Of a DNA stretch of 64,000 nt, positions 16,004 through 23,898 are shown in pieces. The position numbers and the translations under genes were made by a program. Each line of letters opens with the position of its first letter. Within the stretch, counting starts at the first letter, position 1. The stretch lies in the NCBI RefSeq assembly GCF_900119165.1, contig NZ_FPJG01000006.1, forward strand, positions 5,704,001 through 5,768,000, read 5' to 3'. The notes under the pieces are model-generated. The model was given only the letters and a program-made list of their open reading frames with translations. It was not told the origin of the DNA and did not search any database. The DNA is from Amycolatopsis australiensis. Its GTDB lineage: Bacteria; Actinomycetota; Actinomycetes; Mycobacteriales; Pseudonocardiaceae.

Positions 16004-19000
16004 CTACGTCGTCAGCTTCGCCGCCACGTTGTAGGCCTCGACCAGCAGCCGGGCGCCCGGCACGCGCCGCCGTGGCTCGACGCGGACCGTGCGGCTCTCC
16101 CCCGGCAGCAGCCAGAAGTAGTTGTCGCCGTAGCGGGTGGGCAGCACGCGGTCGGCACCGTTGCGTTCCCGCAGCGACAGCCGGATCATCGCGGCGACCG
16201 TCGAGCCCTCGTTGCGGACGGTCGCGGTGTAGGCGTCGCCGTCGGGCCGCAGCGTCGTGGCCAGGCGGGCGCCCGGGAGCTGGTTGAGCGCGCGCATGGC
16301 GGTGTCGGTGCGGTAACGCCAGTACGTGTTCTCCGACAGCACCGCGCCGCTCGCGTCGGTCAGGGTGAGCCGCAGCAGGTGCAGGTCCGGCTGGCCGGCT
16401 TCGAACGGCACCGGGAAGGCGTCCGCGGCCACGTTCGCGGCGACGTCCACCTGCTGCCGGCGCGGCTGCCCGAGACTCGCGCCGTCGAGGCCGTGGAGCC
16501 GCGCCGTCACGGTCGCCCCGGTCAGCGCGTCCGGCGTGTGGTTCACGACGCGGACCTGCCAGGTGGTCAGGTCGGCCTGGACGTGCCGGGCCTCGCAGCC
16601 CTTGCGCGCGCCGTAGTAGCTGCCGTTGACGTCGAGGTCGTAGTCGTAGGTCTGCCAGACCGTGCTGTGCCACGCCGGGTGCGACATCCACAGCAGCACG
16701 CCCGTGGCGTCGTTCCACAGCTTCGCGTTCCACGCCTCGAAGATCGCGCGCATGCTCTCGTAGTTGACGAACTGCGCCTTGCGGCAGAACTCCGCGAGGC
16801 TCGTCGAGGGCGCCAGCCGCGCGTCGATCGCCGCGAGGTAGCTCTGCGGTGACTGGTTGCCGGCGGTGGACCAGTCGTGCAGGAACCACGGCGCGCCGAT
16901 CGGCCAGCCCGGGTCGCCGGAGCCGACCAGGTTGCGCATGCTCTCGACGACCGACACCGTCGGGAGCCCGATTTCGCTCCAGAACCCGTACTTCCCGCCG
17001 GTCGCCTCGCCGGTGAAGTACCGCTTCGGGTCCTGCCAGAAGTAGGGTCCGTCGCCGGTGATCACGCCGCCGGCGGAGTTGCCCTGGTAGAGCAGGTCGG
17101 TGTTGGCCGTGACGATCTCGCGCAGCGCGTTGTCGATCACCGACGGCGGGGTGCCTTCGTTGCAGCCGAACCAGACCGTCGCGCACGCGTGGTGCCGGTA
17201 GCGCAGCACGGTGTCCTTCGCCTGCGCCAGGAAGATGTCGTGGTTGGCCGGGTCGGTCGACCAGCCGTCCCAGAACTCGTTCCACAGCAGGATGCCGTAC
17301 TTGTCGCAGGCGTCGAACAGCTCCTGCCGGTACGACGAGCCGACCCAGTTGCGGATCAGGGTGAAGTTCATGTCGCGGTGCATGGCGACGACGGCGTCGG
17401 CCCGCTCGGCCGGCATCCGGCGCAGCAGCTCGTCCCAGCCCCAGCTGCCGCCGCGGGCGAAGACCTTGACGCCGTTGACCAGCAGCGTCAGCGGCTTGGC
17501 GTTGTTGTCGACGGACGCGGCGCCGGTCCAGGTGTCACCGTCCTGCGACACCTGGATCTCGAACGTCGCCGCGTAGGCGGTCTCCCAGGTCAGCACGACG
17601 CGGTCGAACGCGGTCGCGGTGCCGAGGTCGACCTGCAGCCACTGGTTGTCGTCGTAGCTCGACGTCCAGCGTGTGTTCGGATCGCCGTCGAAGGCGCGTT
17701 CGGGCGGGTCGCCGTCGGCGACCGAGGACGACGTGGCCGGCTTGCCCTGCGCGAGGTCCGTGCCCGGGTTCGCGCTGTCGACGACCGCCATCGTCCAGAG
17801 CGAGAAGCCCCAGCCGGTGGCGCGCTTGCGGCCCTGCATGCGGACGAACCGGGCGTGCTGCGGGCCGAGGTCGACGGTCTGGGTGGCGCGGCCGTCGCTG
17901 ATCACGATCGGCAGGTCGTACCGGTAGCCCAGCTCGCGCAGGCCGATCTTGACCGTCCGGCGGTCGCTGACCGACGCCCCGATCGCCGCGGTGAGCGTCA
18001 GGTCGTAGAGGTCCGGGTCGCCATAGCCGTTGGGCCACCACAGCTTCGGGTCGCGCACCACCTGCTTCGGGAACGCGACGTCGGCGGTCTGGCCGGCCGG
18101 GACGGTGACCGTGCTCGACACACTGACCGGGCCGAAGGCGGCGGTGACCTTGACGCGCTGGGCGGTCGCGGCGGCGTTGCGCACCGGCACGGTCAGGGTC
18201 ACCTCGGCGGTGCCCGGATCCGGCACCTTGGTGTCGACGCGGACGTCGCCGAGCACGGCGGCGCCGGTGGAACGCAGGCGCACGTGGTCCCAGATGCCCG
18301 AGGCGCGGTCGCGGACCGCGGGCATCCAATCCCAGCCCGAGACCGCGAGGTAGGTCGGCGAGTTCTCGAACATCGTGCCGCCCGCGTCCACCCAGGAGCT
18401 GCCGTCGGACCCCTTGTCGCCGGGGCTGCCGGGCTTCGGCATCGGCGCGATCCGCACGGCCAGTACCTGCTCGCCGGTGCGGCGCAGGGCAGCGGTGACG
18501 TCGAAGACGCCGCGGCCGAACGGGTGGCTCTGCGCGCCGATTCCGGCGCCGTTGAGCCAGATGCGGGCTTCGTGGTTGACGCCGTCGAACTCGAGCCAGA
18601 CGTGCCGGCCGGGCGAGGTGTCGAGGCCACGCGGGAGCGAGAACCGGCGGCGGTACCACCACGCGTGGCGGGAAAGCGCTTCCGGGACGTGCAGGTTGTT
18701 CATCCCGGCCACCGGATCGGGCAGCTGCCCCTGCTCGACGAGCGAGGCGAGGACCGTGCCGGGAACGGTCGCGGGCAGCCATCCCCGGGTGTCCACAGTA
18801 GATCCGGAAAGGACGGTGCCGTCCCCGGTGGGCGCCCAGTCGTCCATGGTGAGGACCCAGCCGGACTCGAGCGGCACGGTGCCGTCGGCGGCGACGGCCA
18901 GAGCCGGCGGGTTGTCGTCCGGGCGGACCGGGAAGCTGGTCCAGCCGCGGACGGCGGGCCGGTGGCCGGTGCTGGTGCCGAAGACCTGGAAGCCGTTGAG

Positions 19001-19612
19001 GCCCAAGGGATTGCCCGTCGAGCGGCGAGCCGCGGTGAAGCGAACCCAGCGGGCGGTGACGGCCGGCAGCGGGATCGTCACGACGCCGCCGGTGCCGGAA
19101 TCGGTGTGGTGGACGGTGCGCCAGGCCTTGCCGTCGCCGGAGACGTCGAGGTCGAAGGCCGTCGCGTAGCTCGACTGGATCTCGAAGCCGCTGGTGTGGC
19201 TGCGGGAGGCGCCGGCGTCGAAGGCGGGATCTCCGGGCTGGCCTTCGAAGGTGAGCACGACGGAGTCGATCCGGCACGGCCCCTGCAGGTCGACGACGAT
19301 CCACTGCCCGTCGCCCTGGGCGGCACGCCAGCCGGAGCCCTTGACGCCGACCTGGGCGAGCCCGTCGACGGCGAACTCGGCCGGGGTGGCGGCGTAGTCG
19401 GTGGAGGAAACCCGCACCGGACGGAACAGGGCCAGATCGGTCTTCGCCGCCGGTGCGGCGGTGCCGGCTTCGGTTTCCGCGGAGGCCACGCCGGGCAGCA
19501 CGGCGCCGATCCCGAATCCGGCGAGCAACCCACCCCCGGCGGCGAGCACCCGCCGCCGCGACAGGGCGGCGACGTCGGCGGACGGGGAACCGATGCGGTG
19601 CTGGTCGGCCAT
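16004..19612 (-). CDS. Tat-exported GH2 exo-glycosidase (exo-beta-D-glucosaminidase/mannosidase-like) with two F5/8C domains
   Basis: A 1202-residue secreted glycoside hydrolase family 2 enzyme. A Tat signal is visible: SRRRVLAAGGG at residues 18-28, with a cleavage-like ASA near 46. A discoidin (F5/8 type C, CBM32-like) domain spans about 57-212. The GH2 sugar-binding and immunoglobulin-like domains follow. A second discoidin domain (about 610-705) is inserted just before the catalytic barrel. The probable acid/base is Glu819 in GCNEGTPP and the nucleophile Glu880 in SEIG. The layout and WNEFWDGW/CNEG context resemble exo-beta-glucosaminidases of Amycolatopsis, acting on chitosan oligomers, but beta-mannosidase activity is possible. 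The ATG at 19612 has a GGAG 5 nt upstream. Confidence 0.9.
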   Translation of the reverse strand: MADQHRIGSPSADVAALSRRRVLAAGGGLLAGFGIGAVLPGVASAETEAGTAAPAAKTDLALFRPVRVSSTDYAATPAEFAVDGLAQVGVKGSGWRAAQGDGQWIVVDLQGPCRIDSVVLTFEGQPGDPAFDAGASRSHTSGFEIQSSYATAFDLDVSGDGKAWRTVHHTDSGTGGVVTIPLPAVTARWVRFTAARRSTGNPLGLNGFQVFGTSTGHRPAVRGWTSFPVRPDDNPPALAVAADGTVPLESGWVLTMDDWAPTGDGTVLSGSTVDTRGWLPATVPGTVLASLVEQGQLPDPVAGMNNLHVPEALSRHAWWYRRRFSLPRGLDTSPGRHVWLEFDGVNHEARIWLNGAGIGAQSHPFGRGVFDVTAALRRTGEQVLAVRIAPMPKPGSPGDKGSDGSSWVDAGGTMFENSPTYLAVSGWDWMPAVRDRASGIWDHVRLRSTGAAVLGDVRVDTKVPDPGTAEVTLTVPVRNAAATAQRVKVTAAFGPVSVSSTVTVPAGQTADVAFPKQVVRDPKLWWPNGYGDPDLYDLTLTAAIGASVSDRRTVKIGLRELGYRYDLPIVISDGRATQTVDLGPQHARFVRMQGRKRATGWGFSLWTMAVVDSANPGTDLAQGKPATSSSVADGDPPERAFDGDPNTRWTSSYDDNQWLQVDLGTATAFDRVVLTWETAYAATFEIQVSQDGDTWTGAASVDNNAKPLTLLVNGVKVFARGGSWGWDELLRRMPAERADAVVAMHRDMNFTLIRNWVGSSYRQELFDACDKYGILLWNEFWDGWSTDPANHDIFLAQAKDTVLRYRHHACATVWFGCNEGTPPSVIDNALREIVTANTDLLYQGNSAGGVITGDGPYFWQDPKRYFTGEATGGKYGFWSEIGLPTVSVVESMRNLVGSGDPGWPIGAPWFLHDWSTAGNQSPQSYLAAIDARLAPSTSLAEFCRKAQFVNYESMRAIFEAWNAKLWNDATGVLLWMSHPAWHSTVWQTYDYDLDVNGSYYGARKGCEARHVQADLTTWQVRVVNHTPDALTGATVTARLHGLDGASLGQPRRQQVDVAANVAADAFPVPFEAGQPDLHLLRLTLTDASGAVLSENTYWRYRTDTAMRALNQLPGARLATTLRPDGDAYTATVRNEGSTVAAMIRLSLRERNGADRVLPTRYGDNYFWLLPGESRTVRVEPRRRVPGARLLVEAYNVAAKLTT

Positions 19613-21139: not shown

Positions 21140-22624
21140 CTAGCCGGGGAAGTCGGGGTGCAGCACCTCGTCCACCACCGCGCGGTGCGTGCGCCGCAGC
21201 TCTTCGCCCGGCTCCACGCCCAGGTCCGCCGCCAGCCGGTCGCGGGTGCGGCCGTACACCGCGATCGCCTCCGCACGGCGGCCGGTCGCCTGCAGGGCAC
21301 GCATCAGCAGCGCCGCCAACGGCTCGCGCAGCGGCTCCAGCGCCAGCACCGCCGACAGCTCGTCCGCCACTGCGGCGTACCGGCCCAGCCGCAGCTGCAG
21401 CCGGGCCTTGCGGGTCCACAGCGCGCACCGCCGCTCGGACAGCCGCAGCCGCTGGCCCTCCGCGAACGGGCCCGGCAGCCCCGCGAGCGGCTCGCCGTGG
21501 AACAACGCGAGCGCCGCGGAACACGACGACACCGCGGCGGCCAGGTCACCCGCCTCCTCGGCCGCGCCGGCATCGGCGTCCAGCTGCGCCAGGCGGGCCG
21601 TGTCGATCCGGACGCCGGCCCCGTCGAACCGGTAGCCGCCGCGCGTGCGGCCGATGACCGAGTCCGGGGTCCGCTCGCCCGGCGCGCGCAGGCACTTGCG
21701 CAGCCGGTGCACGTACACCGGCAGGACGCGCCCGCCCGTTCCCGGTGGCTCCATCCCCCAGACGCCGTCCAGCAGCTCCCCCGGGCCGACCGTGACTCCG
21801 GGGCGGAGCACCAGCGCCGCCAGCAGCGCCTGCTGGCGCACCGGGCCCAGGTCCAGCGGGGTGCCGCCGCGCCACGCGCGCATCGGGCCCAGCACCGAAA
21901 ACCGCAGGCCCGGCACCGGTGCCGGCTCGGCGACCGACGGTGGCACCGGGGCATCGTCCACGACCGCCCCGGCGCGCGGGCTGACGATGCCGTGGTCGAA
22001 CGCGTAGACGACGGCCGCGGCCCGGTCGCGCAGCCCGAGCTTGGCGAAGATCCGGCTCAGGTGGCTCTTCACCGTCAGCTCCGAAACCACCAGCGCGGCG
22101 GCGATCTCGGCGTTGGTGAGCCCGCGCCCGGCCGCCCGCAGCACATCCAGCTCACGCGGCGTGAGCAGGCCCGGCGGCGGCCCCGCGGGTCCTTCGGCGG
22201 ACGCGCGCCGGTAGGTGGTGAGGACGCGCGCGGTGACGGCGGCGTCGAGCCACGCGTCGCCCGCGGCGACCGCCCGGACGGCCCGGATCAGGTCCTCGGC
22301 CGGCGAGTCCTTGAGGATGTAGCCGACCGCGCCCGCGCGCAGCACGCCGGCCAGCAGCTCGTCGTCGTCGAAGGTGGTGAGCGCCAGCACGGGCGTCCGG
22401 CCGCCGATCCGCCGGGTCGCCTCGATCCCGTCGACGTGCTTCATCCGCAGGTCCATCACGACGACGTCGACGCCGGTCGCGGCCAGCGCGGCGGGCACCT
22501 CGGCGCCGTCGGCGCACTCGCCCGCGATGACGAACCCGTCGCGACGGCGCAGGATCCGCCGCAGCCCCGACCGCACGAGCTCCTGGTCGTCGACGAGCAG
22601 GACCCGGATCTCGCCCGCGGTCAC
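21140..22624 (-). CDS. Response regulator (REC-LuxR HTH) fused to a SARP-type activator (winged helix-BTAD)
   Basis: A 494-residue protein with four recognisable modules in one uninterrupted frame. Residues 1-120 are a receiver domain with phospho-acceptor Asp58 and Lys105. Residues 153-212 are a NarL/LuxR helix-turn-helix (LTPRELDVLRAAGRGLTNAEIA). A proline-rich linker follows, then from about 239 an OmpR-type winged helix (RFSVLGPMRAW, LLDGVWG, GGYRF). Residues 340-494 form the bacterial transcriptional activator domain of SARPs. The GTG at 22624 overlaps the kinase stop by 4 bp, so kinase and regulator are a coupled two-component pair. Internal initiation at a GTG codon just before the SARP part could also release a separate SARP. 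Confidence 0.88.
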   Translation of the reverse strand: MTAGEIRVLLVDDQELVRSGLRRILRRRDGFVIAGECADGAEVPAALAATGVDVVVMDLRMKHVDGIEATRRIGGRTPVLALTTFDDDELLAGVLRAGAVGYILKDSPAEDLIRAVRAVAAGDAWLDAAVTARVLTTYRRASAEGPAGPPPGLLTPRELDVLRAAGRGLTNAEIAAALVVSELTVKSHLSRIFAKLGLRDRAAAVVYAFDHGIVSPRAGAVVDDAPVPPSVAEPAPVPGLRFSVLGPMRAWRGGTPLDLGPVRQQALLAALVLRPGVTVGPGELLDGVWGMEPPGTGGRVLPVYVHRLRKCLRAPGERTPDSVIGRTRGGYRFDGAGVRIDTARLAQLDADAGAAEEAGDLAAAVSSCSAALALFHGEPLAGLPGPFAEGQRLRLSERRCALWTRKARLQLRLGRYAAVADELSAVLALEPLREPLAALLMRALQATGRRAEAIAVYGRTRDRLAADLGVEPGEELRRTHRAVVDEVLHPDFPG

Positions 22625-23772
22625 GGCGTCCCACCCGCGGGCACGCTGACCGCCACCACCCAGTCCGTCCCCTCCGGTCCCGCGGTGAGCTCGGCGCCCA
22701 GCTGGCCGGCCCGCGCGAACATGCCCTTCAGTCCCGATCCGCCCGCACCCGGCGCGGCCGGCGCGCGAAGCCGGTTGCGGACGACCAGCCGTGCCTCCGC
22801 CGGGCCGACGTCGAGCCGCATCCGGGCGGGCGCGCCGCCGCCGTGCTTGGCGATGTTGGCCAGCGACTCCTGCGCGATCCGGTAGAGGCCGAGCCCGGCC
22901 AGGTCCGGCACCGCGGCCAGGTCGCCCTCCTGCTCGTAGCGGACCTCGAGCCCGGCCGCGCGGGTCCGCTCGACCAGCGCGGCGATGTCGCGGACGTCGG
23001 GCAGCGGGTGGGTCCCGGCCGGCGCCTCGGCGAGCAGCCCGACGGTCCGGCGGATGTCGGCCATCGCCGTCCGCCCGACGCGTTCGGCCTCCGCGAGCCC
23101 TTCGAGGGCCTCTTCGACGTCGCGGTCCTGCCGCAGGGCGTGCCGGGTACCGGTCAGGTGCAGCAGCGTGATGCTCAGCGAGTGCGCGACGACGTCGTGC
23201 ACCTCGCGGGCGATCCGCTGGCGTTCGGCGAGGACCGCCTGGTCGCGGACGGCGTCGCGGGCCGCGCGCTCGGCGTCCAGCGCGCGGACGTACCAGCGCA
23301 TCATCCAGCCGCCGGCCGCGCCCAGCAGCACCGCGGCGACGTAGACGGGGAAGCCGACCAGGCCCGCCAGGGCCGCGGCCACGCTCAGCGTGGCGACGCT
23401 CGCGGCGACGACGGCGAACGCCAACGCGGGCCGGGTGATCGACGCCGCCTCGGCGGCCAGCACCACCAGCACGACGGGCGCGAAGTCCGGCACGGCCGGG
23501 TGGGCCAGCAGGATCGCGACGGCGGCGAGGACGGTGGCCGCCTTCACCCACGGCGGCACGAGCACGCCGGTGCCGGCCCAGACGAGCGGGGTGACGACGG
23601 CGAGCAGCCCGGCGAGCGCGATCGGCGCGGGCGGGACCAGCGCTCCCCGCTGCGCCACCGCGGCGACCGCGAGCAGCGCGCCGAAGGTGGTCGAGCCCAC
23701 CGGCACCCACCACGGGAGCGCGATCCCGGCCCGGCTGAGGCTCGTCTCCAGCCGGGCCCGGATCCCCCTCAC
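22621..23772 (-). CDS. Two-component sensor histidine kinase (HisKA_3 type)
   Basis: A 383-residue membrane kinase. About five or six hydrophobic segments fill residues 15-145. The dimerisation/phosphotransfer motif ERQRIAREVHDVVAHSLS follows with its His, then an ATPase domain (RIAQESLANIAKHG, a degenerate GSGLKGM G-box). The GTG at 23772 is preferred because GGGGGAGGG precedes it; an ATG at 23823 adds 17 residues. The short extracellular loops suggest sensing within or near the membrane. It is the partner of the fused response regulator directly downstream. Confidence 0.88.
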   Translation of the reverse strand: MRGIRARLETSLSRAGIALPWWVPVGSTTFGALLAVAAVAQRGALVPPAPIALAGLLAVVTPLVWAGTGVLVPPWVKAATVLAAVAILLAHPAVPDFAPVVLVVLAAEAASITRPALAFAVVAASVATLSVAAALAGLVGFPVYVAAVLLGAAGGWMMRWYVRALDAERAARDAVRDQAVLAERQRIAREVHDVVAHSLSITLLHLTGTRHALRQDRDVEEALEGLAEAERVGRTAMADIRRTVGLLAEAPAGTHPLPDVRDIAALVERTRAAGLEVRYEQEGDLAAVPDLAGLGLYRIAQESLANIAKHGGGAPARMRLDVGPAEARLVVRNRLRAPAAPGAGGSGLKGMFARAGQLGAELTAGPEGTDWVVAVSVPAGGTP

Positions 23773-23898
23773 CGCCCTCCCCCGCACGCCGACCAGCCTA
23801 GGAAGCGGGCCGCGCGGGCGCATCCCGCCCCGGGTGGAAGCTGCGGTTCATCCGGATTTCATCGGCCCTGGTCCGTCCACTGTGGCCACCCGCAACGC

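Follow-up and report, generated by a model that had tools for sequence, protein, structure and literature searches.

A two-component response regulator fused in frame to a tail-less SARP core in Amycolatopsis australiensis, with predicted binding sites before its own operon and genes of exported proteins

Introduction

The large SARPs exemplified by AfsR (8hvr, 8jke, 8k60; treated in part of PMC10936776) have the same SARP core as the regulator studied here, with many contacts to DNA and RNA polymerase (RNAP). AfsR also has a similar 11-bp direct-repeat box, which a section of PMC10972967 gives as CGTT(T/C)ATCGNN. AfsR is restrained by a C-terminal NOD/TPR region: as described in part of PMC10936776, this tail inhibits the SARP and ATP binding relieves the inhibition. 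In contrast, the regulator studied here has no such tail and carries an N-terminal receiver (REC) and a GerE domain. These two domains, an adjacent HisKA_3 kinase and an intact pocket are shared with NarL/FixJ regulators such as LiaR/VraR, DevR, and NarL, which contain no SARP, whereas a SARP is appended in our protein. Plain NarL-type relatives possess a probable palindromic operator, which is degenerate or missing at most of the fused loci.

Other relatives present only some of these parts. A split operon composed of a histidine kinase, a NarL-type response regulator (RR) and an AfsR-like SARP is found in other Amycolatopsis, such as A. anabasis and A. decaplanina. Its kinase and regulator are orthologous to ours and its SARP belongs to the same subfamily with the same box, but regulator and SARP are two separate genes and the SARP carries a C-terminal tail of ~710 aa, which in A. 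anabasis consists of NB-ARC and TPR according to Pfam. The SARP core is also present in EmbR of Mycobacterium tuberculosis (2fez), which carries a C-terminal FHA domain instead of a receiver and whose partner is a Ser/Thr kinase instead of a histidine kinase. The REC-less LuxR-SARP proteins of Streptomyces, Kitasatospora, and Amycolatopsis share the order GerE-winged helix-BTAD and a near-identical LGLRDRAAAIVYAFDHGIV stretch with our regulator, but they have no receiver and their GerE recognition helix is largely degenerate. REC-SARP proteins are annotated in Firmicutes. BTAD was counted in 0.6% of the response regulators of biosynthetic clusters in a section of PMC10663231, so REC plus BTAD as such has already been seen. 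Among the open-access titles and abstract openings that were listed, we found no description of a REC-GerE-SARP protein or of a SARP controlling type VII genes.

Results

We analysed a 64,000-nt stretch of the A. australiensis genome, hereafter called the window. The preliminary description had read one 494-codon frame as a receiver, a LuxR-type domain, an OmpR-type winged helix and a BTAD. This reading was borne out by Pfam, where all four domains exceeded their cut-offs; the frame itself stands, and its strand was corrected to minus. The features of the gene are as follows.

21140..22624, minus strand: fused response regulator REC-GerE-winged helix-BTAD, 494 aa, GTG start at 22624
22274..22603, minus strand: receiver domain, residues 8-117, with D12, D13, D58, T84, and K105 all there (Pfam Response_reg, 80.9 bits, and alignments)
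22001..22165, minus strand: GerE/LuxR-type DNA-binding domain, residues 154-208, recognition helix SELTVKSHLSRIFAKL intact (Pfam, 59.9 bits)
21908..21982, minus strand: GerE-SARP linker, residues 215-239 (model confidence <50 at 215-237)
21626..21838, minus strand: SARP winged-helix DNA-binding domain, Trans_reg_C, residues 263-333 (Pfam, 38.9 bits; AfsR alignment)
21176..21607, minus strand: BTAD, residues 340-483 (Pfam, 123.5 bits)

REC and GerE with the Asp/Thr/Lys pocket constitute the layout of NarL/FixJ response regulators, to which the adjacent HisKA_3 kinase also conforms, and the OmpR-type winged helix followed by BTAD is the layout of the SARP family (Pfam; Foldseek to AfsR). The protein ends 11 residues past the BTAD and presented no NB-ARC/TPR tail by Pfam, which departs from the layout of AfsR-type large SARPs. 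NCBIfam cut-offs were not reached for MadR (135.6 vs 300 bits) or for the AfsR model (189.4 vs 1430). The structure model (mean pLDDT 81.6, pTM 0.51) is confident for each domain singly but not for their mutual arrangement. Its top Foldseek match was AfsR, with a TM-score by target of 0.87 and 44% identity. GC by codon position remained coding-like through the joint (0.92/0.68/0.88 in the linker).

Fused frames might result from a sequencing or assembly error joining two adjacent genes. Among the 120 listed of 366 homologues found, 48 were classed by BLAST as REC-LuxR-SARP (one of them, P0057, a truncated 294-aa entry), 64 were LuxR-SARP proteins without receiver, three were REC-SARP proteins without GerE, three were SARPs and two were REC-LuxR proteins. 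Across 36 genomes of the genus (our own and 35 others), 11 carried the fused gene and 14 the split form, in which a NarL-type gene is followed directly downstream by a SARP gene in another frame. Neither form was found in the 11 others, of which four have a SARP or LuxR-SARP relative elsewhere. The kinase lies directly ahead in 10/10 fused congeners, and kinase, regulator and SARP stand in series in 13/14 split congeners, the fourteenth (G007) being ended by the contig edge. A scan of the genomes of 84,980 species yielded 417 relatives. Of these, 80 loci were kept: 14 fused (L100-L113; 12 Amycolatopsis, one Kutzneria and one Pseudonocardiaceae bacterium), 10 split (L114-L122, L125) and 56 matching the regulator part alone. 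Gene calls came from our own codon-position scorer, which merged two genes in at least L108.

The fused frame thus recurs in 10 other congeners and in 14 named records, although these records partly repeat the sampled genomes (at least three are apparently the same contigs as G010, G024, and G035). This rules out the joining error, and a lost stop or frameshift is excluded for the window assembly by the same fused copies. Split orthologues do exist, and the database proteins P0049 and P0056 resemble the two halves of one nearly identical fused gene; even so, we regard an artefact as exceedingly improbable. The suspicion that orthologues would always be split fails, since fused and split orthologues are both present.

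The C-terminal tail of the split SARPs runs 707-716 residues beyond the BTAD. The one tail that was scanned, from A. anabasis (L066), contains NB-ARC and TPR by Pfam. This locus has a cytochrome P450 gene (PF00067) and a small gene on one side, as do the plain kinase-regulator pairs of other genera, and the SARP and an ESX block on the other, and in this it resembles an intermediate. Plain pairs (L123, L124, L126, L128, L132, L134, L142, and others) are divergent from a cytochrome P450 gene and a conserved gene of ~105 aa with no Pfam match (scanned in L066), and in several mycobacteria the divergent gene encodes an MMPL transporter (scanned in L131). We also considered the window's neighbouring Hsp20, STAS, MerR/B12, and glycoside hydrolase genes as targets. 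In the compared loci they do not lie beside the operon outside the window's lineage, and no function was read from them because their adjacency is confined to that lineage. The glycoside hydrolase (16004-19612) is a 1202-aa family 2 protein with an exo-beta-D-glucosaminidase Ig fold and F5/8 type C domains, found near the operon only in the window's lineage among the compared loci.

The kinase gene was said to overlap the regulator gene by 4 bp, and we indeed found its stop overlapping the regulator start. The kinase and its promoter comprise the following features.

22621..23787, minus strand: membrane histidine kinase HisKA_3, 388 aa from GTG 23787, 4-bp overlap with the regulator (Pfam HisKA_3, 53.4 bits; relatives)
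23795..23800, minus strand: TAGGCT, conserved -10-like hexamer 8-13 nt ahead of the kinase start codon
23823..23838, minus strand: degenerate NarL-type palindrome TCCACCCGGGGCGGGA, 4 mismatches to TCCTACCNNGGTAGGA, predicted GerE site
23846..23863, plus strand: predicted SARP box in the form of an 11-bp direct repeat, GTTCATCCGGATTTCATC, with 1 mismatch; its orientation is opposite to that of the kinase gene

GTG 23787 rather than ATG 23823 is the probable start of the kinase, because the 388-aa form is also called in many relatives and the conserved TAGGCT lies just upstream. The kinase-regulator mRNA is probably leaderless. HATPase_c was not detected in this kinase by Pfam, even at E 1, and two relatives gave sub-threshold matches only. 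In the window promoter, the palindrome lies at ~-51 and the repeat at ~-76 with 7 bp between them; both stretches are largely conserved in the five-locus lineage. One SARP site was found at the operon against 0.04 expected, and the palindrome, with its four mismatches, reaches a level that was met by 14/220 shuffles.

At ≤2 mismatches, TCCTACCNNGGTAGGA was detected in 44/51 plain kinase promoters (shuffles 0/510) and in 17/17 distinct split kinase promoters (shuffles 1/170), compared to 1/22 fused ones. In plain promoters from Nocardioides to Mycolicibacterium (L123-L179) it mostly lies ~75 bp ahead of the kinase gene, and the SARP repeat was absent from every plain promoter, even at 4 mismatches. 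The palindrome of the plain promoters is probably the operator of a two-component system. Across 21 distinct fused loci with a readable promoter, which belong to few lineages, the palindrome (≤4 mismatches) was present in 7/7 loci whose GerE helix has K/R186 and H188 and in 1/14 loci without this pair, there at -143. From such co-occurrence, we infer that the palindrome is the GerE site and the repeat the SARP site. In the window's lineage the GerE domain is intact and the palindrome adjoins the SARP box ahead of the operon itself, an arrangement suggestive of autoregulation through a composite operator.

The repeat TTTCATCGNNATTTCATCG was first seen ahead of the ESX block, both at fused loci and at that of A. 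anabasis. It also occurs in L063, and the copy in L062 differs at its last base. The TTTCATCNNNATTTCATC-type 11-bp direct repeat resembles the AfsR box. Exact TTTCATCNNNATTTCATC was found at 44 sites in 24/60 genomes, while the reversed-pattern control yielded none. Carriers of the fused or split operon presented the exact box in 22/25 cases, the other three (G003, G005, and G006) having 1-mismatch sites only. It was also found in 2/4 members of the genus that have no more than a SARP or LuxR-SARP relative, in 0/7 with none and in none of the 24 genomes of other families. In a family sample (n = 249), the exact box was present in 17/36 genomes with a close SARP core (E 1e-60), in 0/15 with the regulator only and in 1/198 with no match. 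Comparing 17/36 to 1/213 others (hand count) gave a Fisher p of 1.6e-15, with kinship ignored. The 19/36 SARP-core carriers without the exact box, however, count against our preferred explanation. The sole exact repeat in this sample without a close SARP-core match (G260:C9 172690) has no convincing gene downstream. Overall, the co-occurrence of motif and SARP core makes the repeat a likely SARP operator. In two other genera (L256-L259), an ESX-block gene follows the repeat, whose coordinates fall directly beyond a big SARP, and these genomes gave no regulator match at that threshold. Since repeat and SARP occur there with no such match, the SARP-ESX link may be older than the two-component link.

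We then considered the genes that follow the boxes. For all 44 exact sites only the next gene was read, and secretion signals and the descriptions "hydrolase-like" and, for Pfam-less proteins, "membrane protein" were assigned by eye. At ten sites the next gene encodes a hydrolase-like protein (245-247 aa) that, by eye, bears a signal peptide; the single copy scanned gave no Pfam match. Ten further sites precede the first gene of the ESX block, one of them in G033, which has a LuxR-SARP only, and ten precede the operon's own kinase. One site lies before a PE-PPE esterase of the window's genome (PF08237, 32 bits), 11 before other genes, mostly exported-looking or lipoprotein, and two are unclear (L214, L220). 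A TA at the AfsR-like -10 distance, which was picked after inspecting the sites, is found at 20/21 hydrolase, ESX, and esterase sites and at 12/13 other non-kinase sites (32/34 in total), compared to 0/10 boxes before the kinase in split genomes. At the reversed box before the window kinase, no TANNNT was found at this distance. Because TANNNT is lacking at the AfsR-like distance, the boxes in front of the kinase do not appear to be AfsR-type activating sites.

At ≤2 mismatches, the window's genome presented three sites and the control none. One is the box of the operon; the two others are the following.

C6:2482763: exact SARP box before a secreted PE-PPE/cutinase-like esterase
C6:7846658: 1-mismatch SARP box before a protein without Pfam match, membrane-bound in appearance by eye

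The esterase is suggested as the best target candidate in this genome because the only exact SARP box precedes it. An orthologue was found in 3/4 close genomes, one of them interrupted, and the box stands 53 nt before the start in 3/3 (two exact, one with 1 mismatch). The interrupted orthologue is that of A. iheyensis (G299:C11 537946-541121), where the box persists with 1 mismatch. The operon box is kept in 4/4 close genomes at 1-2 mismatches. In these four genomes, 20 sites were found at 2 mismatches against 2 matches of the control pattern, which weighs against our preferred explanation. Their further boxes precede, for example, penicillin-amidase-like and PknH_C-like proteins (by eye, BLAST to L245).

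An ESX-type block (EspG, YbaB, EspC/WXG100-like) with the repeat in its promoter adjoins many fused operons and one split operon, at the following loci.

L066 9523-13503: ESX-type block of A. anabasis, beside the split operon
L056-L063, L103, L105-L107, L109-L111: further loci with an ESX-type block

In A. anabasis, the block is made up of EspG (112 bits), YbaB, one EspC/WXG100-like protein, two larger proteins whose WXG100 matches stay below threshold, and a protein that matched nothing. The block and its EspG subfamily are missing from the window's genome, where the best EspG match had 28.7 bits. In L065, two small genes in succession lie shortly before the kinase, each preceded by a 1-mismatch repeat (5344 and 6089), and the one nearer to the second repeat is cutinase-like (PF01083).

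In all 65 distinct fused sequences, window included, D12, D13, D58, T84, and K105 of the receiver are invariant, although such distinct sequences still include near copies and differing start calls. K186 of the GerE domain is kept in 58/58 plain, 17/17 split, 42/65 fused, and 4/65 REC-less LuxR-SARP sequences, and H188 in 51/65 fused sequences. The window protein keeps TVKSH, as do all five loci of its lineage. The preliminary description had two DNA-binding domains in one protein, which holds for the window protein and varies elsewhere, the K/R186 and H188 pair being missing from the GerE helix in 14/21 distinct fused loci with a readable promoter. On the regulator tree, K186 needs seven changes, of which the starred branches force only two.

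Median dN/dS was computed from 105 fused, 135 split, and 447 plain pairs, which are not independent. For the recognition helix, it was 0.38 in fused, 0.00 in split, and 0.07 in plain sequences. For the whole GerE domain it was 0.25, 0.07, and 0.26, so that fused proteins do not exceed plain ones, and for REC 0.12, 0.10, and 0.17. The SARP winged helix gave 0.13, BTAD 0.23 and the linker 0.82. When the AfsR contacts were mapped onto the window protein, 18/32 were identical and 14 differed, two of them by D/E swaps; L263 was unmapped. The identical contacts are W74, P79, R92, R94, and K95 to DNA and R59, T63, E68, D71, E77, R173, E176, L211, E213, L243, L247, V249, and R240 to RNAP. Those that differ are S46, Q48, S80, Q81, R87, T88, S91, R62, E76, V172, E246 (D here), R252, D245, and D250 (E here).

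A tree of 63 thinned rows of the RR half, 43 of them fused, allows a single origin of the fusion (support 77, not starred), and the fuller RR tree needs two changes. The SARP half rejects a single fused clade (93 rows, 50 fused; AU p 1.8e-58). A single origin as one clade was thus allowed by one half and rejected by the other, and either one fusion with later domain losses or several fusions may fit.

Discussion

Our results support a true in-frame fusion. Its gene is translationally coupled to that of the kinase, its phosphorylation pocket is intact and its SARP core retains many AfsR contacts. The explanation that we consider probable is a two-component response regulator whose main output is the fused, tail-less SARP activator. 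The membrane HisKA_3 kinase would phosphorylate D58 of the receiver, which would lead to dimerisation or to release of the SARP core. SARP cores would then attach to paired 11-bp repeats and, in the manner of AfsR, bring RNA polymerase to genes of exported proteins. In front of the operon itself, GerE and SARP may share a composite site. Since this site lies outside the AfsR-like position for activation, repression or modulation is no less likely there than activation. Relative to the split form, the fusion would in effect have exchanged an ATPase/TPR switch for a phospho-receiver, since the split SARP has a long C-terminal tail (NB-ARC and TPR in the one scanned) and no receiver and the fused protein has a receiver and no tail.

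The main competing possibility concerns the GerE domain. The SARP might be the sole DNA-binding output, with GerE reduced, also in the window protein, to a spacer for dimerisation. The loss of K186 in many fused and nearly all REC-less LuxR-SARP proteins compared to its full retention in plain and split regulators, the elevated dN/dS of the fused recognition helix and the three REC-SARP proteins that dispense with GerE all point this way. Yet the whole domain evolves no faster than in plain regulators, and the window's lineage keeps TVKSH in all five loci together with a palindrome beside its SARP box, which makes a spacer unlikely in our assessment. The converse, in which GerE would provide the output, as it did in the ancestral NarL-type regulator, with the SARP part as a passenger, would agree with the GerE domain and degenerate palindrome of the window. 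It is very improbable given that constraint on the SARP winged helix matches that on REC, that many AfsR contacts are kept and that SARP boxes are conserved before operon and esterase.

The two other possibilities bear on the activity of the SARP, which we consider here as the main output. A second product, a free SARP made besides the full-length protein, might start at one of the in-frame GTG codons of the linker (aa 222, 227, and 237), but no clear ribosome-binding site was seen by eye near them and the linker is hardly constrained; we give this little credence. SARPs in general, and the review PMC10972967 in the part concerned, would favour activation of a secondary-metabolite cluster, and the preliminary description also pointed to antibiotic clusters. 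This classical role is not supported so far and seems quite improbable: reading the next gene only, the three boxes of the window's genome lead to the operon's neighbourhood, the esterase and the Pfam-less protein, and in relatives the genes next to the predicted sites are those of the operon, of ESX or mostly of exported proteins.

SARPs are widely used to awaken antibiotic clusters, and how they are switched is poorly known. The locus described here offers a natural SARP that is probably under a phosphorelay, with the split form of sister species as a control and with a predicted operator and a predicted target in the same genome. It would also constitute a natural experiment in how a regulator changes its DNA-binding domain and operator together. 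Based on sequence comparison, we see about an even chance that fusion of the RR to the SARP rewired a two-component system to a new regulon and put a phospho-receiver in place of an ATPase/TPR switch. In several lineages the former DNA-binding domain and its operator would then have degenerated in parallel, whereas that of the window would have retained both domain-operator pairs on a composite operator. Its regulon would consist of exported and type VII proteins, a role for SARPs outside antibiotic clusters. The locus also points to a SARP subfamily with predicted sites before secreted and type VII genes, not antibiotic genes.
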